Assembly (NCBI RefSeq): GCF_025460835.1
Contig: NZ_JAMXAY010000009.1
Location: 1 to 64,000 of the forward strand
DNA: 64,000 nt
Direction of reading: 5' to 3'
Source: Parapedobacter soli
GTDB taxonomy: Bacteria; Bacteroidota; Bacteroidia; Sphingobacteriales; Sphingobacteriaceae
In this document: positions 51,791 to 64,000 of the stretch, piece after piece
Layout of the letters: the number at the start of each line of letters is the position of its first letter
How positions within the stretch are numbered: position 1 is the stretch's first letter
Made by a program: the position numbers and the translations under genes
Notes under the pieces: model-generated
The model's database searches: none
What the model was told of the DNA's origin: nothing
Seen by the model: only the letters and a program-made list of their open reading frames with translations

Positions 51791-51991
51791 TTATTTCGGC
51801 ACGACACGGGTGGTATCGGTAAGCTCGTGCACACTGTCCGCGGCACGCAACTGGTCATAATTCAACCCACGTTCGTAATAATCCTCAGCCACCAACGAGT
51901 CGGTATCCATGTTTACCATATAAACACCAAACGACACGATCAACACCATAAAAGATGCCAGCGCAATCACTATTTTTACTCCCCAGTTCAC
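51791..51991 (-). CDS. ccoH: FixH/CcoH, short form
   Basis: A 66-residue protein with one helix (KIVIALASFMVLIVSFGVYM) followed by DTDSLVAEDYYERGLNYDQ, the FixH signature just outside the membrane. Other Bacteroidota FixH proteins run to roughly 145 residues with a periplasmic beta domain; here the frame stops after RVVPK, so most of that domain is missing. The next gene begins 3 bp later, leaving no room for it. The start codon is GTG at 51991. FixH aids assembly of the cbb3 oxidase together with the copper ATPase FixI. Confidence 0.75.
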   Translation of the reverse strand: MNWGVKIVIALASFMVLIVSFGVYMVNMDTDSLVAEDYYERGLNYDQLRAADSVHELTDTTRVVPK

Positions 51992-52010
51992 GTTTTCAAT
52001 TATCGATTTT

Positions 52011-52088
52011 CAATTGTTAATTGCTAATCCACCTTGACCATTAACAATTAACCATTAACCATTAACAATTAACCATTAACCATTATTT
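52011..52088. repeat. Heptanucleotide tandem array, mixed ATTAACC/ATTAACA
   Basis: Units ATTAACA, ATTAACC (x2), ATTAACA, ATTAACC (x2) occupy 52040-52081 and are followed by ATTATTT, which contains the ccoG stop codon. Just before, 52011-52027 holds degenerate copies of the complementary form (CAATTGTTAATTGCTAA). It fills the gap between ccoG and ccoH and combines the two unit types seen at 32.2-32.5 kb. Confidence 0.88.
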
Positions 52089-53450
52089 AACCGGTGCTAC
52101 AAATGTTGTTTTCAATGTTTCCACCGCCTTTCCATCAGCCATCACGCCGATTTTCACATCCGTTTTATATGTTTTCACCGATTGTTGCGGAGTAATAAGG
52201 AAAAAGGTCATTTGCGCTGTCGCACCCGCTTTCAGTACGGTGAGCTGGTTAACCATGCGGATGGCCATATCTTCATCTAACACTTCGAGGTTGAACGGGA
52301 TATCATTGCTCGTTTTGTTAATCAATTCCAAACTATAAAGGTTGCTTACGGTTCCATCATCGAGGACCTGGTAGGTACTGCCCCTGGCGCGGAGAAGCGT
52401 GCCATCCACTTGCGACCTACTGAACATGAGCCACCCGAACACGGCAACCAACGCGGCCAGCACCACGGTATATGCGATGGCGCGGGTGTTCCCTTTCGCC
52501 TTGGGCTGCCCTTCGATTTCACTTACCGAGTAAAAACCGATAAGGTTCTTGGGCCGGTCGAGCTTTTCCATTACGGTGTCGCATGCGTCGATACATGCCG
52601 TGCAGCTCACACATTCCATCTGCAGTCCGTTGCGGATATCAATGCCCGTAGGGCATACCTGCACGCACAAGTTGCAGTCTACACAGTCGCCCACCAATTG
52701 TTCCACGTCTTTTTTCCGATGTCCACGCGGTTCTCCCCTGCGGTGATCATAGGCTATGGTAACGCTCTTATCGTCCATCAGCACGCTCTGCAACCGCCCA
52801 TAAGGGCAAATCGTGGTGCACACAATCTCCCGTACATAGGCGAATACACCGTAAAACACCAATGTGAACAAAACAATGGCAACAAACCCACCGATATGCT
52901 GGCTGATGGGATCGGTCATGATTTTCCAAAGCTCCTCGATACCGATAATGTAAGAAAGGAAGAGGTTTGAAATCACAAAGGAAATAAGCAGGAAAATAGT
53001 ATGTTTAAGGATTTTTTTTGCATACTTGGCCGTGGTATTGGGGGCCTTGTCCAACTTTTTCTGCTGCAACCAATCGCCCTCGATCAGAAATTCGATACGG
53101 CGGAACACAAGTTCCATGAAAATGGTCTGGGGGCACGCCCATCCGCACCATACACGGCCATACACCACGGTGAATAGGACGATGCATACCATGGCAATCA
53201 GCATCCCGAAGACGAAGATATGCAGGTCCTGCGGCCAGAAAACGCTTCCGAAAATAACAAACTTGCGCTCAATGATGTTGAATAACAAAAGCGGCTCACC
53301 GCCGATTTTGATAAACGGGGCCACAATCAAAAAGGCCAACAGCGTATAACCCACCCATTGCCGCCGATTGAACCACTTTCCACCGGGCTTCTTTGCATAG
53401 ATCCATTCGCGTTTCGGCTTTACTGCGCCCGCTACCGTTGCTGTTGCCAT
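52083..53450 (-). CDS. ccoG: CcoG/FixG, cbb3 oxidase accessory ferredoxin
   Basis: A 455-residue membrane protein with about five helices and two 4Fe-4S clusters, seen in CVDCNLCVQVCPTGIDIRNG and CVSCTACIDACD. An earlier CGWACPQTIF motif is typical of the NapH/CcoG group. The C-terminal part is an immunoglobulin-like periplasmic domain. Required for maturation of cbb3 oxidases, with evidence in other bacteria for copper reduction. It follows ccoP after 60 bp. The stop codon is in the heptamer array. Confidence 0.94.
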   Translation of the reverse strand: MATATVAGAVKPKREWIYAKKPGGKWFNRRQWVGYTLLAFLIVAPFIKIGGEPLLLFNIIERKFVIFGSVFWPQDLHIFVFGMLIAMVCIVLFTVVYGRVWCGWACPQTIFMELVFRRIEFLIEGDWLQQKKLDKAPNTTAKYAKKILKHTIFLLISFVISNLFLSYIIGIEELWKIMTDPISQHIGGFVAIVLFTLVFYGVFAYVREIVCTTICPYGRLQSVLMDDKSVTIAYDHRRGEPRGHRKKDVEQLVGDCVDCNLCVQVCPTGIDIRNGLQMECVSCTACIDACDTVMEKLDRPKNLIGFYSVSEIEGQPKAKGNTRAIAYTVVLAALVAVFGWLMFSRSQVDGTLLRARGSTYQVLDDGTVSNLYSLELINKTSNDIPFNLEVLDEDMAIRMVNQLTVLKAGATAQMTFFLITPQQSVKTYKTDVKIGVMADGKAVETLKTTFVAPVK

Positions 53451-53509
53451 GTATTCTTCACTCCTTTACCTTATTGGTTTTACCTCAATTATCTTCAATC
53501 CCCATGCTT

Positions 53510-54361
53510 CTACTCACCAACAGATGCCACCTCCGGCTCGGGCGTGGCGGCCGCATCCTGGTATTCAACTTTTTCGCCTTGTGGCTCCTTGGCATTCGGC
53601 GGGTTATTGCCCCGCAATGTAATGATATAATTGCTCACCTCGGCGATCTGCGCCGGCGTCAGGCTTTGCTCCCAGGGAATCATCCCCTTATCCAGCACAC
53701 CGTATTTGACTACCCTGAAAATATCCTGCACCTCACCGCCGTGTAGCCAATACTCATCGGTGAGGTTGGGTCCGATTCCACCCTCACCCACGCCGCCGTG
53801 GCAGGCAGCACAGTTCTGGGTGAAGATTGCTAGTCCGGCCGCCACCGTCTCCGGGCTGGTGTCTACCGTCACGGTATTCTCGTCGATGTTGTTGGCGGCC
53901 TGGGACAGCCATTCCTGCCGGGCTTGTTCGGCACGTGCCATCTCCCGCGTATACTCCTCGTCTTGGGTGGGGCCCCAGCCGAATACATGATACACACACA
54001 GGTACACCACCGCAAATGCGATGCTACCGTAGAACATGACATTGAACCACGCCGGCACGGGGTTATCAAGTTCCTTTATGCCGTCGTATTCATGGTCGAT
54101 GACCAAATCCTTTTCCTCTGACATCGGCCGGAGCCCCATCAACTTGTTCCACCAGTGCGCCCAGCGGCTGCCGCGGGCGTGCGCCACTTCCGTTTTGGCA
54201 GTAGCCGCGTTGGCCAGTGCCTGTGGCATGGTAACCCGTACCATCACCCGCAACGCGCGTAAAACCACCAATGCAGACAGCAGGATGACCACCATCACTA
54301 CCACCAGGGCAATGATGAGTATATTGTGGCTGAGATTTACTTGCATGAAGATTGTGTTCAT
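53510..54361 (-). CDS. ccoP: cbb3 oxidase subunit III, single heme
   Basis: A 283-residue membrane-bound cytochrome c. Two N-terminal helices are separated by a polar loop with WWNKLMGLRPMSEEKDLVID and the CcoP-type YDGIKELDNPVPAWFNVMFY, followed by one heme motif CAACH in FTQNCAACHGGVGEGGIGPN and an axial Met region (MIPWEQSLTPAQIAEVSNYI). Proteobacterial CcoP has two hemes; a single one is seen here. It passes electrons toward CcoO. Confidence 0.93.
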   Translation of the reverse strand: MNTIFMQVNLSHNILIIALVVVMVVILLSALVVLRALRVMVRVTMPQALANAATAKTEVAHARGSRWAHWWNKLMGLRPMSEEKDLVIDHEYDGIKELDNPVPAWFNVMFYGSIAFAVVYLCVYHVFGWGPTQDEEYTREMARAEQARQEWLSQAANNIDENTVTVDTSPETVAAGLAIFTQNCAACHGGVGEGGIGPNLTDEYWLHGGEVQDIFRVVKYGVLDKGMIPWEQSLTPAQIAEVSNYIITLRGNNPPNAKEPQGEKVEYQDAAATPEPEVASVGE

Positions 54362-54378
54362 GGTTTGCTATATTTAAT

Positions 54379-54564
54379 TTAGTTTACCGGTTCGTCGTCA
54401 GACGTTGCCTCATCATCCATCGGAATGCCTTTCATATAATCGATATCGGCTTTCCGCATCCGGAAAAGTCTGATGCCTACGATAATGAAAAACAGCAGGA
54501 ATATCCACAGCGATGCAATGAGATACCACTCATTACCGCTCAAATCTGTTATTTGCTTAAACAT
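54379..54564 (-). CDS. ccoQ: CcoQ/FixQ, small cbb3 subunit
   Basis: A 61-residue single-helix protein, NEWYLIASLWIFLLFFIIVG followed by IRLFRMRKADIDYM and an acidic tail. Size, topology and position between ccoNO and ccoP identify it as the small stabilising subunit. It starts 18 bp after the ccoNO stop. Confidence 0.85.
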   Translation of the reverse strand: MFKQITDLSGNEWYLIASLWIFLLFFIIVGIRLFRMRKADIDYMKGIPMDDEATSDDEPVN

Positions 54565-54582: not shown

Positions 54583-56712
54583 TTAGTTGTTCGTTGCGCT
54601 GGCCGGTAACGGTGCATTAATATCTGTGCCCAGCCGTTGCAGATAGGCTATCAGAGCGATAATCTCGCGGTCTGATTTTACACTCACCCCCTGATCGTTC
54701 AGGTCGGCAGCAATCGTTTCGGCCTGTTTCCGGAGGTCTTCATCGGCGTTGTCGATATGCTCGTCGGTGTAAGGTACGCCCAGTATCCGTAAGGCGTTCA
54801 ACTTGCCTTTTGTCGTGCTTACGTCGAGTGTCTGCTCGATGAGCCATGGGTATGGGGGCATGATACTACCCGGTGAGGTGATCGTGGGGTCAAGCATGTG
54901 GTCGAAATGCCATTTGTTCGGGTATTTCTTGCCGATGCGGTGAAGGTCGGGCCCGGTGCGCTTAGATCCCCATAAGAACGGGTGGTCATACACGAACTCG
55001 CCTGCTTTGCTATACTCGCCATAGCGCACGGTTTCCGAACGGAACGGGCGGACCGTCTGCGTATGGCAGTTCACACACCCCTCACGGATGTACAGGTCGC
55101 GCCCCTGGATCTCCAGTGCGGTATAAGGCTGTACGCTGGCAATGGTGGGTACGTTTGACGAAATCATGAAGGTCGGCATCATTTGCACAATACCGCCGAT
55201 CAGAATGGTAATCAACGCCAATACGAGGAACAGCACGGGCTTCCGCTCCAGCCTGCGGTGGGCGGACCGCTCGTTTACCACCACCGGTGTTAGTTCGGGG
55301 GCCTCGGCGGGCTCATTGGCCAGCAAGCGGCCTTTCCTCATGGTCTTCACCAGATTGTACGTCATCATGATGGCGCCCGACAGGTAAAGTGCGCCCCCGA
55401 TGGCGCGGAGCATGTGCATGGGGATGATCTGCAGGGTGGTAGCCAGGAAATTGGGGTACTTCAAAACACCCTCGGGCGTAAACTCCTTCCACATAAGCCC
55501 CTGCACCACCGCAGCCCAGTACATCGGAATCGCATAGAAAAGGATACCCAGTGTGCCAATCCAGAAATGCGCCGATGCCAGCTTTTTAGAATAAAGCTCT
55601 GTCTTATAGATACGCGGTATCAACCAATAGAGGATAGCGAAGGTCATGAAACCGTTCCACCCCAAAGCGCCTACGTGCACGTGCGCCACAATCCAGTCGG
55701 TAAAGTGTGCGATGGCGTTCACCTTTTTCAGTGACAGCATAGGCCCCTCGAATGTAGCCATACCGTATGCGGTGAGTGCCACCACCATAAATTTCAATGT
55801 GGGTTCGGTACGCACCTTATCCCACGCACCGCGCAGCGTAAGCAATCCGTTGATCATACCTCCCCAGCTGGGGGCGATGAGCATGATGGAAAATGCCACG
55901 CCCAGCGATTGCACCCACTCGGGCAGGGCCGTGTACAACAAATGGTGCGGGCCAGCCCAGATATAGATAAAAATCAACGACCAGAAATGGAGGATACTAA
56001 GCTTATAGGAGTAGATGGGACGGTTGGCCATCTTGGGGAGGAAATAATACATCATCCCCAAGTAGGGTGTGGTGAGGAAAAAGGCCACGGCATTATGCCC
56101 ATACCACCATTGTACCAGCGCATCCTGCACACCTGCGTAGAGGTAGTAGCTCTTCCACATGGAAACGGGCAGCTGCACAGAGTTGACAATGTGCAACACG
56201 GCAACAGTGACAAAGGTGGCAATATAAAACCAAATGGCTACGTACATATGGCGCTCGCGCCGCTTGATGATGGTGCCGAACATGTTGATACCAAATACCA
56301 CCCATATAATGGTAAGGCCAACGTCGATGGGCCATTCCAGCTCGGCATATTCGTGGGAGGTGGTAATGCCCAGGGGCAATGTGATGGCCGCGGCCAGGAT
56401 GATGAGCTGCCAGCCCCAGAAATGTACCCGGCTCAGGAAATCACTGAACATCCGGGCTTTAAGCAAACGCTGCAAGGAATAATACGCCCCCATGAAAATC
56501 GCATTACCCACAAAGGCGAAAATCACTGCATTGGTATGCAATGGCCGTATCCTGCCGAATGTGGTGTATTGCAAATCAAAGTTCATGAATGGCCAGACGA
56601 GCTGTACGGCGACCAATAGGCCTACCGACATGCCGACGATGCCCCATACGATGGTGGCAATGCCGAAGTTGCGGACAATTTTGTTGTCGTAGTTGAATTT
56701 AGTTAGCTGCAT
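54583..56712 (-). CDS. ccoNO: cbb3 oxidase subunits I and II fused
   Basis: A single 709-residue protein joining the catalytic heme-copper subunit CcoN (about 1-470, twelve helices, with the copper/heme ligands in VQWWYGHNAVAFFLTTPYLG and DWIVAHVHVGALGWNG) to the monoheme cytochrome CcoO (about 500-700, heme motif CVNCH in YIREGCVNCHTQTVRPFRSE). Fusion of these subunits is common in Bacteroidota. The enzyme reduces oxygen at low concentration and pumps protons. It opens the operon ccoNO-Q-P-G-H-SafE. Confidence 0.95.
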   Translation of the reverse strand: MQLTKFNYDNKIVRNFGIATIVWGIVGMSVGLLVAVQLVWPFMNFDLQYTTFGRIRPLHTNAVIFAFVGNAIFMGAYYSLQRLLKARMFSDFLSRVHFWGWQLIILAAAITLPLGITTSHEYAELEWPIDVGLTIIWVVFGINMFGTIIKRRERHMYVAIWFYIATFVTVAVLHIVNSVQLPVSMWKSYYLYAGVQDALVQWWYGHNAVAFFLTTPYLGMMYYFLPKMANRPIYSYKLSILHFWSLIFIYIWAGPHHLLYTALPEWVQSLGVAFSIMLIAPSWGGMINGLLTLRGAWDKVRTEPTLKFMVVALTAYGMATFEGPMLSLKKVNAIAHFTDWIVAHVHVGALGWNGFMTFAILYWLIPRIYKTELYSKKLASAHFWIGTLGILFYAIPMYWAAVVQGLMWKEFTPEGVLKYPNFLATTLQIIPMHMLRAIGGALYLSGAIMMTYNLVKTMRKGRLLANEPAEAPELTPVVVNERSAHRRLERKPVLFLVLALITILIGGIVQMMPTFMISSNVPTIASVQPYTALEIQGRDLYIREGCVNCHTQTVRPFRSETVRYGEYSKAGEFVYDHPFLWGSKRTGPDLHRIGKKYPNKWHFDHMLDPTITSPGSIMPPYPWLIEQTLDVSTTKGKLNALRILGVPYTDEHIDNADEDLRKQAETIAADLNDQGVSVKSDREIIALIAYLQRLGTDINAPLPASATNN

Positions 56713-56770: not shown

Positions 56771-56996
56771 AACATCGGGTTTAAAAGTAATGGTGGTCAC
56801 TATTTACCACACCCGATCGTTACCTGTGCTTCAGCCGTGTCTTATCCCTGTCTCATCCCTGTCCTATCCCGGTTATATCCCACCATACCTCGGTAAAAAC
56901 GCCAAAACACGGCGTTTCATCGGGACACCATCGGAAAGGTATCGGCAAAAACGATGCAATGAGCGGGTAACGGACGGGGGTTAGCCACGAATTTAC

Positions 56997-57020: not shown

Positions 57021-57302
57021 ATGGATATTTTCGACTTCAAAGACTCGTTAAAACACGACGCCCCACCTATTGGCCTCACCGTGCAATTAGAGGCGCTGTG
57101 GTATGATGGCAAAGGCGATTGGGAACGGGCCCATGAGCTGGTAAACGATTTGGACGACCGGCAGTCAGCCCATGTGCACGCCTACCTCCATCGCAAGGAG
57201 GGTGACCTGTGGAATGCCGATTACTGGTACCGGCGGGCGAAGCGCCAGCGGTTTAGCGGCACATTGGAGGAAGAATGGGAAGAACTAGTTAAAATCATGT
57301 AG
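57021..57302 (+). CDS. Conserved-looking small protein, unknown function
   Basis: A 93-residue soluble protein starting MDIFDFKDSLKHDAPPIGLT. The core (LEALWYDGKGDWERAHELVN, then HAYLHRKEGDLWNADYWYRR) looks like one or two TPR-like helical hairpins. I recognise the pattern as a small family of uncharacterised proteins but cannot name a function. It is divergent from ccoNO and overlaps the 3' end of ccoS by 8 bp. It has a good -7 promoter element. Confidence 0.65.
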   Translation: MDIFDFKDSLKHDAPPIGLTVQLEALWYDGKGDWERAHELVNDLDDRQSAHVHAYLHRKEGDLWNADYWYRRAKRQRFSGTLEEEWEELVKIM

Positions 57303-57477
57303 CCCGGTCCTGTCCTTCTTCCGCCTCCGCATTTTCCACCTCATCATCAAACAGCATCCGGATAGACGGTGTGTATGTATCGTCGTGCTGGCCGGTTTTA
57401 TTGGCCCAAAAGAAAGCAGCCAGGAAAATCAGGGCTATAAACACACTGCAACCGATAAGAAAGAAAATAGCGCTCAT
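57295..57477 (-). CDS. ccoS: CcoS/FixS, cbb3 maturation protein
   Basis: A 60-residue single-helix protein, MSAIFFLIGCSVFIALIFLA followed by AFFWANKTGQHDD, the CcoS signature (xxFxWAxxxGQxDD). CcoS is needed for insertion of cofactors into the oxidase. The gene overlaps the 3' end of the ATPase gene by four bases, the usual fixI-fixS arrangement. Confidence 0.9.
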   Translation of the reverse strand: MSAIFFLIGCSVFIALIFLAAFFWANKTGQHDDTYTPSIRMLFDDEVENAEAEEGQDRAT

Positions 57478-59888
57478 GATACATTGTGGGTTAATTGTCT
57501 TTTTGTCGCAAATATACGGGTGGCCACCGTGGTAAACCCGATGATGGTAACAGTACTCAACGGCATCAGTATAGCGGCAAACAGGGGAGACATCGTGCCC
57601 ATAACCGCGAAGCTCAACCCCACCGCATTATAGACCAGGGAAATACCGAAACTCATATGGATGACCTTCCGCACATCTTTCGCAAACCCGAAGAAGCGCG
57701 GGAGCAAACCGAATGAGCGGCCATCCAGTACGGCATCGCAGCCCGGCGAGAAGTTATTGATATCGTCGCTCACGGCGACCCCCAAATTAGCTTGCTTCAA
57801 TGCTCCGGCGTCGTTAAGTCCATCGCCGAACATGCACACCGCCCCACCTTGCGCCTGCAATGAACGGATATATTCCAGCTTTTCGATAGGCAACCGATTA
57901 AACAGCAATTCTGAGGTACCGGGGAAAACGGCTCGTAACTCCTCCCTATCTTTGTCATGATCGCCAGAAATCAGGTTAAGTGCATAATCATTCCCCAAAC
58001 TATCGATCACCGCTTTTAGTTGCGGCCGCCACGGTTGCGTAGCCACAAAGCAGCCCCGCACCTCGCCATCGATAGCTACATAGACACGGCTACCCCGTGC
58101 CGTGCCACTGGTTGTATCGGTTATGCCGACAAACATCCCGCTGCCCAGACGCACATTGCGGCCTGACACAGTGGCCTCGATGCCTTTGCCTGTTACCTCC
58201 CGGAAATCCACGGCACCCATCGGGGTCACCACTCCGGCCCAATTGACCAATTCGCGACTCAGCGGGTGGCTGGAGTTTTGCGCTACCGCCACCACCATAG
58301 CCAGTTCGGTCGGTGTCAGCTCACCATCGAAATGGATCCGGGACGCATTGGGCGAGGAGATGGTGCCCGTTTTGTCAAACACCAGGCAGTCGATTGCCGC
58401 CAACTGTTCGATGGCTGCCGTATTTTTGATGTAAAAATGGTTGCGGTCGAAGATACTCAGGGCCGCAGATAAGGTAAAAGGCCCGCTCAGCGCCAACGCA
58501 CACGGGCAGCCGATAATCAGAACGGCGGTGAACGCCCCCCAAGCTTTTACAGGGTCGCCCTGGAAAAACCAATACGCCATGGCCGAAATGGCAATGGTGA
58601 GCAATGCTACCGTAAAATACCGGCTCACCACGTTGCTGAATGTACGGAATTTCCGCTCATAAGGCTTAAAAGCGTCGTTGTTCCACAGCTGCGTCAGGTA
58701 GCTTTGCGACACCGCCTTCACCACCTCCAGCTCGATGGCTCCGCCGAGCTGCCGCCCTCCGGCATAGATGATTTCCCCCAGTACTTTGGACACGGGTTCG
58801 GACTCTCCGGTGACGAAACTGAAATCGATGTTGGCATCTCCTTTCAGGAGGATGGCATCGGCGGGAACGATTTCACCATTGCGGACAAGCAACCGGTCGC
58901 CGACACGGATATCTGCCAAAGGGACGGGTTTCCTATTGTCTTCTATGATACGCGTTACGGCAACGGGGAAATATGAGCGGTAATCGCGCTCAAACGATAT
59001 GTGGTGGTAGGTACGTTGCTGCACCCACCGGCCCACCAGCAGGAAGAACACCAGCCCGCAGAGGGTGTCGGCAAATCCGGGGCCACTGCCGGTAAAGACT
59101 TCCCAACCCGTGCGGATAAACAGCACGGCAATGCCGAGTGCCAGCGGTACATCGAGATTGAGCCGGCGGTGGCGAAGGCTTTGCCAAGCCGACGTAAAGT
59201 AATCCCGCCCGCTATAGAGCAACACCGGCAGTGAGAAGGCGAAATTCATCCACCCGAAGAACATCGAGTATTTAGCCTCAAAAGCAGCCATTCCGAAATA
59301 CTCGGGGAAGCTCAGCATCATGGAGTTTCCAAAACAGAACCCGGCAACGGCGATTTTGGCAATCAGTCCTTTCTGCGAAAATTTGCGCCCGGCCTTCACC
59401 ACGTCCTGCAACGTGATCTTAGGCGCATAGCCGAGGTCGTCCAATAGCTCAACCAGTCCGCGTATGGATAGCTCCTGGTGCTTGATCGTGATATTGACGT
59501 GTTTTTTCATGAAATCAGTCTGCGATCTCACAATGGCAGGATTCAGCTTATAAAGGTGTTCGAGCAGCCATATACAGGAGCTGCAGTGGATGGCTGGGAT
59601 GTAGAAAGTGACGACGGTTAGTCCATCGTTTTTGAAATCGATAAGTTTGTCGGCGATTGCCGCCTCATCGAGGTATTCGTACCGCTCGCTATGTTCCGCC
59701 TTCTTCTTTCCAGGGTGGTTATTGTAGCGGTAGTATTGATGCATGTTGTTACCGCTCAGTATGCGGTATACACTTTGGCATCCGAGGCAACAAAAGGTAT
59801 GGCCATCGGTCTCGTAGACCTCGTGCAAAACGGCATCTCCGCAATGGAAACATCTTGTATTTCTCGACGCTTTGGTCTCTAAAGCCAT
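57474..59888 (-). CDS. ccoI: Copper-translocating P-type ATPase FixI/CcoI
   Basis: An 804-residue pump supplying copper for cbb3 oxidase assembly. The N-terminus has a Cys-rich DUF-type domain (CFHCGDAVLHEVYE, CCLGCQ) and a metal-binding domain with HCSSC. Membrane CPC motif in IIGCPCALALSGPF, phosphorylation site DKTGT, and the hinge GDGLNDAGALKQANLGVAVS are present. It belongs to the operon LDH-like - hemN - ccoI - ccoS. Confidence 0.94.
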   Translation of the reverse strand: MALETKASRNTRCFHCGDAVLHEVYETDGHTFCCLGCQSVYRILSGNNMHQYYRYNNHPGKKKAEHSERYEYLDEAAIADKLIDFKNDGLTVVTFYIPAIHCSSCIWLLEHLYKLNPAIVRSQTDFMKKHVNITIKHQELSIRGLVELLDDLGYAPKITLQDVVKAGRKFSQKGLIAKIAVAGFCFGNSMMLSFPEYFGMAAFEAKYSMFFGWMNFAFSLPVLLYSGRDYFTSAWQSLRHRRLNLDVPLALGIAVLFIRTGWEVFTGSGPGFADTLCGLVFFLLVGRWVQQRTYHHISFERDYRSYFPVAVTRIIEDNRKPVPLADIRVGDRLLVRNGEIVPADAILLKGDANIDFSFVTGESEPVSKVLGEIIYAGGRQLGGAIELEVVKAVSQSYLTQLWNNDAFKPYERKFRTFSNVVSRYFTVALLTIAISAMAYWFFQGDPVKAWGAFTAVLIIGCPCALALSGPFTLSAALSIFDRNHFYIKNTAAIEQLAAIDCLVFDKTGTISSPNASRIHFDGELTPTELAMVVAVAQNSSHPLSRELVNWAGVVTPMGAVDFREVTGKGIEATVSGRNVRLGSGMFVGITDTTSGTARGSRVYVAIDGEVRGCFVATQPWRPQLKAVIDSLGNDYALNLISGDHDKDREELRAVFPGTSELLFNRLPIEKLEYIRSLQAQGGAVCMFGDGLNDAGALKQANLGVAVSDDINNFSPGCDAVLDGRSFGLLPRFFGFAKDVRKVIHMSFGISLVYNAVGLSFAVMGTMSPLFAAILMPLSTVTIIGFTTVATRIFATKRQLTHNVS

Positions 59889-59901: not shown

Positions 59902-61284
59902 TTAAACAGCACTGCTGAACAACGGTTCTGTGTATTGCTTTTCGTGGAGGCGTATATCGAACGCCATGCAGATATTGCGCAAGAATGACGACCCCGTGGC
60001 CGTCACTGAGATATGCATATCGTCGACCACCACCAAGCCATCGGCCACCAATGGCTTCAGGCGCCGCAGTATTGGCTCGGCGTGTTCCATGGATACATCT
60101 AGCGTGGTACGGCCCCGGCACATGAGGTCGAGGACATGCTTCCGGATCTGCAGGTCCAAACTGGAAAGCACATGCCCTTTGAACACGGGGAGCTCTCCCC
60201 TATCCACCCTCGATTGGTACGCTTCGACGGTCTTTTCATTCTGTGCGAAAGCCGTCCATGAATCGCTGATGGATGATACGCCAAGTCCGATAAGCAGCGG
60301 TGAATACCTATCGGTATAACCCATGAAGTTGCGGTGCAGCCCGCCGGTTGCTGCGGCAATGCAGAGGGCATCCTGTGGTGTTGCGAAGTGGTCCATCCCG
60401 ATATCCTGGTAACCTGCATCGGTGATCAGGGCTTTGCCGAGGCTATAGAGTGCGAGTTTCTCTTTGCCCTTGGGGATATCGGCTTCGGTATAATGGCGCT
60501 GGCCGGGCTGCATCCACGGCACGTGGGCATAGCTATAGAAGGATATCCGATCGGGCAGCATGGCGAGCGATTTCGTGACGGTGGCCTGCACGCTTTGCAA
60601 CGTTTGCAGGGGCAGGCCATAGATCAGGTCGAAGTTGATGGAAGTATAGCCGATGCGGCGGGCGTCTAACATCACCCGCTGCACATCGGCTTCGGTTTGC
60701 CACCGGTTGATAACACGCTGCACCTTCGGGTCAAAATCCTGTATACCCAAGCTAAGCCGCCTGAAGCCTGCATCAAAAAGTGTTTCCAGATGGGCTTCGG
60801 TAGTATTTGCCGGATGGGCCTCGAAAGAAAACGATGGGTTTGGCAATACGTTGCACCCCCCCAGCAGTCCATCCATGAGCCGCTGGAGCTGCACCGGGCT
60901 GAAGAAGGTGGGCGTGCCGCCTCCGAGGTGTATTTCGCTGATCGGTACGTCTGCGGGGCCGAGCAACCTGCGATACAACTGCCATTCGGCCAGTACGGCG
61001 TCTATATATGGTGCTTCCACACCATGGTTTTTCGTGATACGTTTATTGCAGCCGCAATAGGTGCATAGGCTCTCACAGAAAGGGAGGTGCACATACAGCG
61101 CCACACCTTGCGCCGACGATGCCGATAACCGTGCCCGCACATGGTCGGTCCAACGGCTGGTATCCCATGTCGTCTCGTCCCAGTACGGCACGGTGGGGTA
61201 GCTGGTGTACCTCGGTGCTGCCACATTATAGCGTGCTATCAGTTCTGCAATATCAGTTTCCCGTTCTACCATATTGATAATCAT
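59902..61284 (-). CDS. hemN: Oxygen-independent coproporphyrinogen III oxidase
   Basis: Radical-SAM enzyme of about 460 residues making protoporphyrinogen IX precursor without oxygen. The cluster motif CESLCTYCGCNK contains CxxxCxxC, followed by EIHLGGGTPTFFSP and SFYSYAHVPWMQPGQR, typical of true HemN rather than HemW. The frame opens at 61284; MVERETDIAEL at 61272 is an alternative start. It overlaps the upstream LDH-like gene by about 30 bp and supplies heme for the cbb3 oxidase under low oxygen. Confidence 0.94.
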   Translation of the reverse strand: MIINMVERETDIAELIARYNVAAPRYTSYPTVPYWDETTWDTSRWTDHVRARLSASSAQGVALYVHLPFCESLCTYCGCNKRITKNHGVEAPYIDAVLAEWQLYRRLLGPADVPISEIHLGGGTPTFFSPVQLQRLMDGLLGGCNVLPNPSFSFEAHPANTTEAHLETLFDAGFRRLSLGIQDFDPKVQRVINRWQTEADVQRVMLDARRIGYTSINFDLIYGLPLQTLQSVQATVTKSLAMLPDRISFYSYAHVPWMQPGQRHYTEADIPKGKEKLALYSLGKALITDAGYQDIGMDHFATPQDALCIAAATGGLHRNFMGYTDRYSPLLIGLGVSSISDSWTAFAQNEKTVEAYQSRVDRGELPVFKGHVLSSLDLQIRKHVLDLMCRGRTTLDVSMEHAEPILRRLKPLVADGLVVVDDMHISVTATGSSFLRNICMAFDIRLHEKQYTEPLFSSAV

Positions 61285-61732
61285 TGACTATGCGGCGATC
61301 GCCCCCCGCTTTCACTTTTTTTTTATCCATTTCACACACCTTTTGGCAGCAGCAAGCTTCGCCCACACACTTCCCAGCCCCCCAGGCATTCAGATTGCGT
61401 ATCGTCTGCTTGGCGAGATTCGGAACCGATTGGTCCTCATCCGGTACGTTAGCGATTTTGAAATCCATGCGTGTTGCCTCACCCAGATCGATATGTGTGG
61501 TAATCTTGGACCGGGTGATGATCTTGGTTACTCCGGCGTGCTTCAATTCCCATAGCATCTCGCGGTCCAATATATCGTATGGTGAGATGATCACTGCTTC
61601 TTTCCCCAAGGCATACGACACTGTTCTGGCATTCAATTCATTGGAGATCAATGTCAAATCGTGTCTCTTCCCATTAGCTATTGCCAAGCATTCTTTTTCT
61701 TCTGGCTTTATATTGTAAGCGATTGCTTTCAT
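61253..61732 (-). CDS. Half-length D-lactate-dehydrogenase-like protein with Cys-rich tail
   Basis: A 159-residue protein. Residues 1-100 resemble the N-terminal part of D-2-hydroxyacid dehydrogenases (LISNELNARTVSYALGKEAV, then IITRSKITTHIDLGEA). The NAD-binding Rossmann domain and catalytic residues are missing. In its place is a Cys cluster at 122, 127, 128, 129 and 133 (KCVGEACCCQKVC) that could bind metal or an Fe-S cluster. It is first in the operon with hemN, ccoI and ccoS and has a good promoter. I recall similar short LDH-like proteins near hemN in Bacteroidota; function unknown. Confidence 0.6.
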   Translation of the reverse strand: MKAIAYNIKPEEKECLAIANGKRHDLTLISNELNARTVSYALGKEAVIISPYDILDREMLWELKHAGVTKIITRSKITTHIDLGEATRMDFKIANVPDEDQSVPNLAKQTIRNLNAWGAGKCVGEACCCQKVCEMDKKKVKAGGDRRIVNDYQYGRTGN

Positions 61733-61820: not shown

Positions 61821-61840
61821 TGTCAGTCTAAAAAGTGACA
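61821..61840. promoter_or_regulatory. TGTCA/TGACA inverted repeat upstream of the hemN operon
   Basis: TGTCA (61821-61825) and TGACA (61836-61840) are inverted with a 10-base spacer, just upstream of the -33 element. The half-sites are the same as those before ccoNO, but spacing differs (10 rather than 6), so they may not be bound by the same protein in the same way. Confidence 0.35.
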
Positions 61841-61877
61841 TCGGTTACTTCTTACACTGGTGCGGATGTAGGCGTGG

Positions 61878-62948
61878 TTATTGTTTGATATGCTGCAATT
61901 TATTGATGGAGAGGATCCGGATTGCGTTTCCTTCCTTCGCGATGAGTTTTTCGTCTTTGAAGTCGGCAAGCATACGGCTGATGGTTTCGTTGGCCGTGCC
62001 GGCCAGCGATGCCAGGTCATCGCGCGATATACGGATGAGGCATTCGTCGTCCGTGGCACCTGCGAGTGTCTTCTCGGCCACGTGGATGAGTGCGTTGGCT
62101 ACGCGCTTCCGAACCGAATCGTATGCGAAAGCCAGCAATTGGACTTCCTTACCGCGGATATTGCCCGAGAGCAGCTTGATGAATTTATTGGCTATCCCGG
62201 GCTTCCGGTAAAGTAATTCAAAGAAATTGTCACGGTCTACCAATGCCAACTCAGTGTCTTCCAGAGCTTCGGCATTGTCTGTATAACGTTGTTGGAGCAG
62301 CAATGCCCCATAACCGAAAAATGAGTTATCCACATGGATATCGGTAGCCAGCTCCCGACCATCCAAATAATGCAGGAAACGGCGCACTTTGCCTTTCTTC
62401 ACGAAATACACATACAGTGGTGTATCCCCCTCTTGGTAGATGAATTGCTTTTTCTTATAGGTTTTAGTCCGGGAGCGCTGGACGAGCTCCTGCAAGAGGG
62501 TGTCTTGCTCTTCCTCGCTTAGGCGGAGGTCCTTGTTGATTTCCTTTTCCGGGCCCAGTTGCTTACGTTTCTTCAGCCGGGTTTCTATGGCGTTGAGCAG
62601 TTCGATATCATCAAAAGGCTTGGTCAGGTAGTCATCTGCACCCAGTTCCATCGCTTTCCGCATATCTGCGCGCTCGGCCTTTGCCGTTAGGAAAATAAAA
62701 GGTATGGTGGCGGCCTGCGGGTGCTTGGACAACATATACAGCACGCCATATCCATCCAGCTCGGGCATCATGATATCGCACAGGATAACACTGGGTAAGT
62801 GCTTGATGGCCAGCTCCACCCCCGTTTTCCCTTCGGGGGCTTCAAAAACCTGATAACCCGTCAGCTCCAGGATTTCCTTCGTGCTTTCACGGATATCGTC
62901 GTTATCCTCGATAATGAGTACGGTTGTTTGTTTAGTTGCTGTTGACAT
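61878..62948 (-). CDS. Response regulator fused to CRP/FNR-type transcription factor
   Basis: A 356-residue protein joining a receiver domain (1-125; phospho-Asp D58 in LCDIMMPELDG, Lys in LTKP) to a cyclic-nucleotide-binding-like domain (about 150-265; FIYQEGDTPLYVYFVKKGKV) and a CRP-type helix-turn-helix (about 300-345; DDLASLAGTANETISRMLAD). The recognition helix ETISR resembles FNR. Only two scattered Cys are present, so there is no FNR-type iron-sulfur cluster; input should come by phosphorylation. It overlaps the kinase gene by 17 bp. Confidence 0.9.
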   Translation of the reverse strand: MSTATKQTTVLIIEDNDDIRESTKEILELTGYQVFEAPEGKTGVELAIKHLPSVILCDIMMPELDGYGVLYMLSKHPQAATIPFIFLTAKAERADMRKAMELGADDYLTKPFDDIELLNAIETRLKKRKQLGPEKEINKDLRLSEEEQDTLLQELVQRSRTKTYKKKQFIYQEGDTPLYVYFVKKGKVRRFLHYLDGRELATDIHVDNSFFGYGALLLQQRYTDNAEALEDTELALVDRDNFFELLYRKPGIANKFIKLLSGNIRGKEVQLLAFAYDSVRKRVANALIHVAEKTLAGATDDECLIRISRDDLASLAGTANETISRMLADFKDEKLIAKEGNAIRILSINKLQHIKQ

Positions 62949-64000
62949 GGCTGGTATTGTGGAATGTAAGCGTAAACACGGTTCCTTTGTCCTGCGCGCT
63001 CTGGCACGTGACCTCCCCCCCCATCAGCGACACGTACCGCCTCACGATATTGAGGCCTAAGCCGGTGCCCGGGATGTTGCCCGTGTTATGCGCACGGAAA
63101 AACGGCTCAAACAGGCTCTTCTGGTCTTCTGCCGGGATCCCGATGCCGTCGTCTTTGACTACAATCTGGCATGTATCGCCATTGATCTCGGTATTGAACT
63201 CGATAAAGGTGTTCTCACCTGAATATTTGATTGCATTGGATATCAAATTGATGACACTGTTTTTGAGTAAGTTGGCATCCAGTTTAAATTTGCCCTCCGA
63301 CCCGGTGTGTTGGTATACAATATGCTGGTTTGCCTTACATATCAGCTGCATTTCTTCGGTAATTTCTTCGGCCACTTCCACGAGATTAATCTCTTCGTTG
63401 TCGGCGAGTACCTTCCCGGCCTCAAGCCGTTCCAGCGACAGGAAATCGTTCAGGATGCTGGTAAGCAACTGTACCGAACCTTTTATCCGGCCTGTATGTT
63501 TCAACACATTGGGCAAGTCGGGCTTTGCTGCATATTTTTCTATCAGTGAGGCCGAAAGCTGGACCGCGCTGAGGGGTGTGCGGAATTCGTGGGATGCCAT
63601 GGACACGAAGCGCGATTTGAGTTGGTTGAGCTCCTTCTCCTTCTCCAGCGATTGGCTGACGTCAGCCTTAGTCTTTTCGAGCTCAGACACCAATTTAATC
63701 AGGTCTTTGGTCCGGTTGCTCACCGTCGCCTCCAGCTCTTCCATGTGGTGCAGCAGTTTCTCTTCAGCCTCCTTTTCTTTCGAGAGGTCGTGCACGAACC
63801 CGGTGAACGCGATTTTATTTTCGTAGTGCACCTCACTTACCGCAAGCCGGAATGGGAATGTTGTCCCATCTTTACGCAAGCCCCGTACCTCCCTGCCTAT
63901 ACCGATTATTTTTTTCACACCGGTGGTGAGGTAGTTGTGGATGTACTGGTCGTGCCGGCTTTGGTCGGGCTCGGGCATCAGCATCGATACGTTGTTGCCG
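62932..64000 (-). CDS. FixL-like PAS sensor histidine kinase, 5' end outside window
   Basis: The visible 355 or so residues begin inside a PAS domain (MLMPEPDQSRHDQYIHNYLT, then GIGREVRGLRKDGTTFPFRL) and continue through a coiled coil to a histidine kinase: phospho-His in SMASHEFRTPLSAVQ, N-box NLISNAIKYSG, G-boxes DDGIGIP and GTGLGLNIV. The PAS segment keeps the heme-ligand His of Bradyrhizobium FixL (His200, here in SRHDQY at 63952-63954), Ile215 and Arg220; Arg206 is Asn and His214 is Lys. Likely an oxygen or redox sensor for the next gene. The N-terminus is not visible. Confidence 0.88.
   Translation of the reverse strand, partial: GNNVSMLMPEPDQSRHDQYIHNYLTTGVKKIIGIGREVRGLRKDGTTFPFRLAVSEVHYENKIAFTGFVHDLSKEKEAEEKLLHHMEELEATVSNRTKDLIKLVSELEKTKADVSQSLEKEKELNQLKSRFVSMASHEFRTPLSAVQLSASLIEKYAAKPDLPNVLKHTGRIKGSVQLLTSILNDFLSLERLEAGKVLADNEEINLVEVAEEITEEMQLICKANQHIVYQHTGSEGKFKLDANLLKNSVINLISNAIKYSGENTFIEFNTEINGDTCQIVVKDDGIGIPAEDQKSLFEPFFRAHNTGNIPGTGLGLNIVRRYVSLMGGEVTCQSAQDKGTVFTLTFHNTSHVNSN

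Follow-up and report, generated by a model that had tools for sequence, protein, structure and literature searches.

The window, the whole stretch of 64,000 nucleotides from Parapedobacter soli (Sphingobacteriaceae) that was analysed, ends within a sensor kinase gene on the minus strand, of which it holds the C-terminal 355 of 401 amino acids (62932-63999; the gene continues to L011:4138). Its reading frame overlaps by 17 nt that of a regulator on the same strand (61878-62948), and both genes lie where the initial annotation had placed them. A predicted operator (AAGTAACCGATGTCACTT, 61833-61850, minus strand, one mismatch to AAGTGAY-N4-RTCACTT) stands upstream of two further minus-strand genes. 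One of them had escaped the initial annotation and encodes a D-lactate-dehydrogenase N-terminal-like protein with a cysteine-rich tail (61253-61732), located between the regulator and hemN and termed ldh-like in the following; its 2-Hacid_dh score of 23.3 bits is just below the Pfam cut-off of 24.6. The other, hemN (59902-61284), specifies an oxygen-independent coproporphyrinogen III oxidase and scores above the cut-off of TIGR00538. Reading frames fitting ccoI (57474-59888, a P-type ATPase with homologues found in relatives by blast), ccoS (57295-57477), a fused ccoNO of the cbb3 oxidase (54583-56712) and ccoQ, ccoP, ccoG and ccoH (51791-54564) continue on the regulator's strand; these cco names are those of the initial annotation and not of family profiles. 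A second predicted operator (TAGTGACCACCATTACTT, 56785-56802, minus strand, two mismatches) precedes ccoNO. The intergenic region that holds this palindrome is shared by ccoNO and a divergent reading frame of 93 aa (57021-57302, plus strand), which is present in six other Parapedobacter genomes and gave no Pfam or NCBIfam match.

When completed from the contig, the 401-residue kinase consists of PAS, HisKA and HATPase_c domains as defined by Pfam, and no membrane stretch is apparent by eye. Its PAS domain is 48% identical to the heme domain of BjFixL, which is also the best match among solved structures (E 4e-34), followed by FixL entry 1d06 (7.8e-28) and DosP (1.5e-18). The initial annotation had pointed to equivalents of the FixL heme histidine, Ile215, Arg220 and Leu236, and all four (BjFixL H200, I215, R220 and L236) are present in our alignment, while I238 is replaced by V, R206 by N and H214 by K; all of these are positions which we take to have roles in the heme pocket. 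Across the 55 loci with a FixL-type kinase described below, a number that excludes the window and three duplicates, R220 and L236 occur in 55/55, H200 in 54/55 and I215 in 53/55. All four residues come together in 52 of these loci versus none of 57 loci with an adjacent kinase of another kind. H200 alone is not diagnostic because other-sensor PAS domains of the same regulator family often have it too, namely in 43 of the 46 loci among the 57 that have a PAS match. The FixL-type kinase of Dyadobacter sp. CECT 9623 (L117) carries Q at the heme-histidine position and has retained both its partner regulator and the ldh-like gene. For an AlphaFold model of the relative from P. composti (L090; mean pLDDT 79, pTM 0.69) the 28 best fold matches were all FixL or DosP heme domains, with LOV domains coming after. 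A FixL-type PAS appears to be combined here with a kinase core of another kind, because the NCBIfam FixL model NF041777 gives the protein 175 bits, under the whole-protein cut-off of 850, and matches best at residues 6-135, that is the PAS. The rest of the protein is not FixL-like by this test, and heme binding by the PAS is predicted.

The regulator contains Response_reg (residues 10-122), cNMP_binding and HTH_Crp_2 domains in Pfam, which bears out the earlier proposal of a receiver joined to a CRP/FNR-type DNA-binding protein, here abbreviated REC-CRP. Receiver residues D15, D58, T88 and K110 do not vary among the 25 sequences aligned. The absence of an FNR-type N-terminal cysteine cluster from the regulator sequence likewise agrees with the earlier reading, the only cysteines being C57 and C303. 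The recognition helix of the window protein is ETISR, and the pattern E-x-x-S-R was read in 46 of 57 regulators of the FixL group (11 not read, none E-x-x-I-R), compared with E-x-x-I-R in 40, E-x-x-S-R in 3 and 27 not read among 70 other REC-CRPs; all 26 FNR-type proteins read have E-x-x-I-R. The same genome encodes two other proteins above the HTH_Crp_2 cut-off (proteins labelled C57 and C93) and one below it (labelled C78), whose helix TPETLSR also conforms to E-x-x-S-R.

REC-CRP proteins were found in 39 of 60 relatives and in 42 of the 296 genomes of a phylum-wide sample, all 42 within the class of the window. After removal of three duplicates of our G-numbered genomes (L090, L099, L110), which were left out of the counts and of the REC-CRP tree, 124 of 127 REC-CRP loci remained: 55 with an adjacent FixL-type kinase, 57 with another kinase and 12 for which none was found. 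As in the window, the kinase gene adjoins or overlaps that of the regulator in this Bacteroidia type of two-component system (overlap by aligned start in 42 of the 55 FixL-type loci), and the arrangement is not due to chance because it recurs across Bacteroidia. In a REC-CRP tree of 124 rows, calculated by a quick method with no bootstrap, the FixL-type rows fall within one clade of 57 with an SH-aLRT support of 99; its three remaining rows are a paralogue in G013 (L061) and two loci that are short or truncated at contig ends (L101, L111). On these sequences the predicted heme-PAS/REC-CRP pair is a defined clade nested in the Bacteroidia REC-CRP family. Rows from Flavobacterium and Dyadobacter nest inside the FixL-type clade, which suggests that the pair has been transferred. 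The other kinases of the family carry, as judged by eye, an 'R.MG.G' PAS, a receiver-like domain or others, and non-FixL loci such as L065 and L082 combine different N-terminal sensors with the same kinase core and REC-CRP. Since core and regulator stay the same while the N-terminal sensors differ, the sensor part seems to have been exchanged within the family. We found no description of a FixL-type kinase/REC-CRP pair in the open-licence literature.

The hemN/cco neighbourhood emphasized in the initial annotation recurs in 38 of the 55 FixL-type loci within the flanks examined (8-10 kb, shorter at some contig ends): hemN is present in 38, any cco gene in 33, either of them in 38 and the ldh-like gene in 47, compared with hemN in 4, cco in 16 and ldh-like in none of the flanks of the 57 other-kinase loci. 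The ldh-like gene shares the regulator's strand in 47 of 48 cases and begins a median of 90 nt, at most 1530, behind it. Since the ldh-like frame at L056 reaches 325 aa, the copy in the window may represent a shortened enzyme. Among 37 Sphingobacteriaceae of the relatives set, ccoNO occurs in 19 of the 24 genomes with a FixL-type pair and hemN in the same 19, compared with 5 and 4, respectively, of the 13 genomes without the pair (Fisher p 0.03 for ccoNO and 0.006 for hemN, uncorrected for shared ancestry). Five of the 24 pair genomes, one of them 71% complete, are devoid of both ccoNO and hemN; these genes are therefore not the only targets of the pair. Parapedobacter G008 is without the pair, ccoNO and hemN alike. 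In the phylum sample, ccoNO is present in 38 of 42 REC-CRP genomes versus 204 of 296 overall, a co-occurrence that we judge weak because all 42 belong to one class, where ccoNO is frequent in any case.

Both the ldh-like/hemN unit and ccoNO are preceded by a conserved palindrome, AAgTGAy-N4-rTCAcTT, and this also holds for the window. In an exact gapped-palindrome search, registers of AAAGTGA-N6-TCACTTT ranked at the top both for ldh-like genes and for ccoNO, exact copies being few (best register 6 of 47 and 7 of 26, respectively). With up to two mismatches, AAGTGA-N6-TCACTT precedes 36 of 47 ldh-like genes versus 0.25 expected and 19 of 26 ccoNO genes versus 0.45 expected, in sets that still contain the duplicates L090, L099 and L110 plus several near genomes; in most cases it is located 85-110 bases ahead of the aligned start. 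Upstream of comparison genes it was found for 1 of 21 ccoI, 1 of 39 hemN itself and 2 of 20 ccoG genes and, at up to two mismatches, for none of 14 abcF and none of 11 clpC genes. It also precedes the kinase gene in 13 of 54 cases (1.15 expected), which hints at self-control of the pair in some genomes, and is present in six of seven cases for the reading frame at 57021, which borders on the same intergenic region as ccoNO. A search of the window's own genome with the pattern yielded 46 matches per strand versus 42 for the control, that is no enrichment, and a wider regulon defined by this pattern was rejected. Of the 46 match places 15 were read, among which only the ldh-like site both scored high with the weight matrix and stood in front of a gene. 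No clear shared palindrome emerged upstream of cco/hemN in the other-sensor REC-CRP group. On the other hand, AAAAACTGATAAAAATCAGTTTTT precedes hemN in G011, a genome that has no REC-CRP, and a similar site occurs in G035, which has an other-sensor pair. This C-form is therefore not unique to pair genomes and may be used by another CRP/FNR protein.

FNR was detected at E<=1e-50 in six Sphingobacteriaceae of the relatives set, none of which has a FixL-type pair; five of these FNRs show the cysteine spacing CxxC-N8-C and that of G015 CxxC-N10-C. At the same threshold no FNR orthologue was found in any of the 24 pair-bearing Sphingobacteriaceae, in two further ones or in 26 named ones. The 24 Sphingobacteriaceae genomes with ccoNO thus comprise 19 with the pair only and five with FNR only and no FixL-type pair (G015 being 76% complete), a split with a Fisher p of 2e-5 that is uncorrected for shared ancestry. 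In a ccoNO tree, which included only three FNR-only rows, all but two of the 28 pair rows (26) group in a single block; the counts within Sphingobacteriaceae thus largely reflect one ancestral event, and the p-values therefore overstate independence. An FNR with CxxC-N8-C adjoins the ccoI-like gene in G017 as well as in G011 and G035, both without a FixL-type pair, and in G035 ccoNO lies about 156 kb from this locus. Where pair genomes gave weaker FNR matches (1e-35 to 1e-43), these have either no cysteines at this place or a C-x4-C-x2-C arrangement (L256-L261 and L306), of which the G019 copy L257, CRDCCDVQSCFLC, also fits a loose CxxC...C. Several Sphingobacteriaceae harbour such a second cysteine-rich Crp-type regulator that starts with C-x4-C-x2-C (L256-L261, L266, L267, L306) and might be another metal or redox sensor.

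The operator appears to have changed along with the regulator. The half-base of the ccoNO palindrome, that is the base before TGA, was read with the specificity columns masked in 34 pair-bearing Sphingobacteriaceae (31 of the main set and three named ones; L057, in which ccoNO starts at the end of the stretch, is represented by L194, L192 and L193 are omitted as duplicates of L052 and L051, and L296 and L104 are one genome). A site is present in 32 of the 34, and G stands before TGA on at least one side in 30; the remainder have no site (L160, L293) or other bases (C/C in L149, A/C in L195). By comparison, the site is present in each of the 18 genomes that encode an FNR homologue but no FixL-type pair; 15 of them have A on both sides, and none has G. 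Six of these homologues have CxxC-N8-C (G011, G017, G030, G035, G038, G041), those of G040 and 11 Flavobacterium only CxxC. In the Flavobacterium homologues (14 genomes, 15 proteins) CxxC is kept and the third cysteine at FNR spacing is missing, as it also is in G040, so that they may or may not be Fe-S FNR proteins. These Flavobacterium proteins (L309, L311-L326), encoded beside or near cco, have six to eight cysteines in all. Five of the six Flavobacterium with the pair have kept the FNR homologue, and in all five genomes with both systems the ccoNO palindrome has A on both sides. Taken together, the pair has probably stepped into the place of FNR as the direct input of oxygen, for the most part through a single evolutionary event.

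The metagenome-assembled Flavobacterium sp. BFFFF1 (L144; G349) carries the pair near its cco cluster, and a search for FNR at 1e-30 gave no match in this genome. Where the FNR homologue of Flavobacterium G078 is divergent from ccoI, a different reading frame is present in G349 on an unbroken contig. The ccoS-ccoNO palindrome (AAAACGTGACACCCGTCATATTTT) occupies the same place as in other Flavobacterium, has one half of the pair type (GTGAC) and falls within the final codons of a ccoI tail missing from G078. With BFFFF1 as the single example of a second exchange, it is quite conceivable, the balance tipping slightly to the other side in view of the missing third cysteine of the Flavobacterium FNR homologues, that the pair displaced FNR from cbb3 control with operators being rewritten at least twice, namely in an ancestral core member of the Sphingobacteriaceae and, after horizontal transfer, in a Flavobacterium.

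Viewed from domain architecture, heme-site residues, gene overlap, palindrome conservation and the pattern of exchange with FNR, the pair is likely to constitute a two-protein oxygen switch that acts on the ldh-like/hemN unit and ccoNO and took over from FNR in Sphingobacteriaceae. The cytoplasmic kinase would bind heme b in its FixL-type PAS, and oxygen on the heme would hold the kinase off. At low oxygen, the kinase would autophosphorylate on the HisKA histidine and pass the phosphate on to D58 of REC-CRP. The phosphorylated regulator would then bind A(g/c)TGAy-N4-rTCA(c/g)T in front of ccoNO and the ldh-like/hemN unit and switch on the cbb3 oxidase and the anaerobic route of heme synthesis, a role that the pair would have assumed from FNR in Sphingobacteriaceae.

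Three other explanations have to be weighed against such a switch. The absence of FNR could be a coincidence of lineage, with one loss in core Sphingobacteriaceae for unrelated causes. We regard this as rather unlikely: the block of 26 out of 28 pair rows in the ccoNO tree fits it, as it turns the split of 19 versus 5 into mostly one event, but the ccoNO half-base has shifted too, in step with the recognition helix, and in Flavobacterium BFFFF1 a pair near cco coincides with the lack of an FNR match at 1e-30, a taken FNR place and a GTGAC half-site. It is unlikely that the pair senses oxygen and has targets of its own, such as the ldh-like gene or itself, while the palindromes are bound by a different CRP/FNR protein. 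The genome of P. soli does offer other HTH_Crp_2 proteins (those labelled C57 and C93) plus the sub-cut-off protein C78 with its E-x-x-S-R helix, G011 has a C-form site upstream of hemN and no REC-CRP, and five pair genomes are without cco or hemN. In G028, however, REC-CRP is the sole protein above the HTH_Crp_2 cut-off, yet palindromes precede the ldh-like gene and ccoNO, an argument qualified by ccoNO half-bases that are A/C and not G; furthermore, the ccoNO half-base follows pair versus FNR across genomes.

The remaining alternative concerns the ligand. A PAS that is FixL-like by sequence might be free of heme or read NO, CO, redox state or another ligand, and the replacement of BjFixL R206 by N and H214 by K, the frequency of a position-200 histidine in other-sensor PAS domains (43/46) and the Q at this position in Dyadobacter L117, where pair and ldh-like gene persist, would all be compatible with this. 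We nevertheless consider it quite improbable, because H200, I215, R220 and L236 are jointly near-invariant in the FixL-type clade only, the 28 nearest folds of the L090 model are heme-PAS domains and the genes linked to the pair are related to oxygen.

A FixL-type PAS kinase with one-step REC-CRP output that probably replaces FNR at cbb3 genes is the label that describes the predicted oxygen switch best. A member of the Bacteroidota seems to sense oxygen by a FixL-like heme protein whose signal goes directly to the DNA-binding regulator of low-oxygen respiration genes. If true, a FixL-type heme sensor would reach cbb3 genes via a single regulator outside Proteobacteria, and promoters would have passed from one class of oxygen sensor, FNR, to another, a heme kinase. 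As the half-base switches together with the recognition helix, co-evolution of regulator and operator becomes directly testable. Natural variants are available for comparison: the Dyadobacter protein with its replaced heme histidine, genomes that have the pair but no cco, and Flavobacterium with both systems.

The initial annotation regarded the pair as a two-protein version of FixL/FixJ/FixK in which the FixJ and FixK steps are merged. This describes how the system may work and not its descent, because both kinase core (175 versus 850 bits with NF041777) and output differ, the regulator belonging to the Bacteroidia REC-CRP family. FixJ consists of a receiver and a LuxR-type HTH output, whereas the output of the window regulator is cNMP_binding plus HTH_Crp_2; FixK is a stand-alone CRP/FNR protein without receiver, whereas the window regulator carries Response_reg at residues 10-122. 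Like the rhizobial system, the pair retains the FixL heme-site residues and is predicted to control cbb3 genes from a FixL-type kinase via a CRP/FNR-type protein. Unlike it, it has neither a LuxR-type output nor a separate FixK step, the receiver resides on the CRP-type protein, and the kinase has one PAS and a core that is unmatched by the FixL model. A variant FixL wiring that ends in FixK, hFixL-FxkR-FixK of Rhizobium leguminosarum, places two regulators in series (PMC7888657), while the window system has one. The FixK anaerobox given there, TTGAT-N4-ATCAA (PMC7888657), is related to but different from the predicted palindrome A(g/c)TGAy-N4-rTCA(c/g)T.

Within Bacteroidia, other REC-CRP pairs share with the window the regulator architecture, an adjacent kinase gene and, in 16 of 57 cases, cco genes in the flanks, and they differ in a sensor that is an 'R.MG.G' PAS, a receiver-like domain or another. 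FNR, which the pair has apparently replaced, is a more telling comparison than FixL/FixJ/FixK. Bacteroidota FNR belongs to the same regulator superfamily, probably acts on the same targets and is encoded beside ccoI in G011, G017 and G035, as is the CxxC homologue in Flavobacterium G078. In contrast to the pair, it is predicted to sense oxygen via its own cysteines without any kinase, its recognition helix is E-x-x-I-R, and its half-base is A where that of the pair is G or C.
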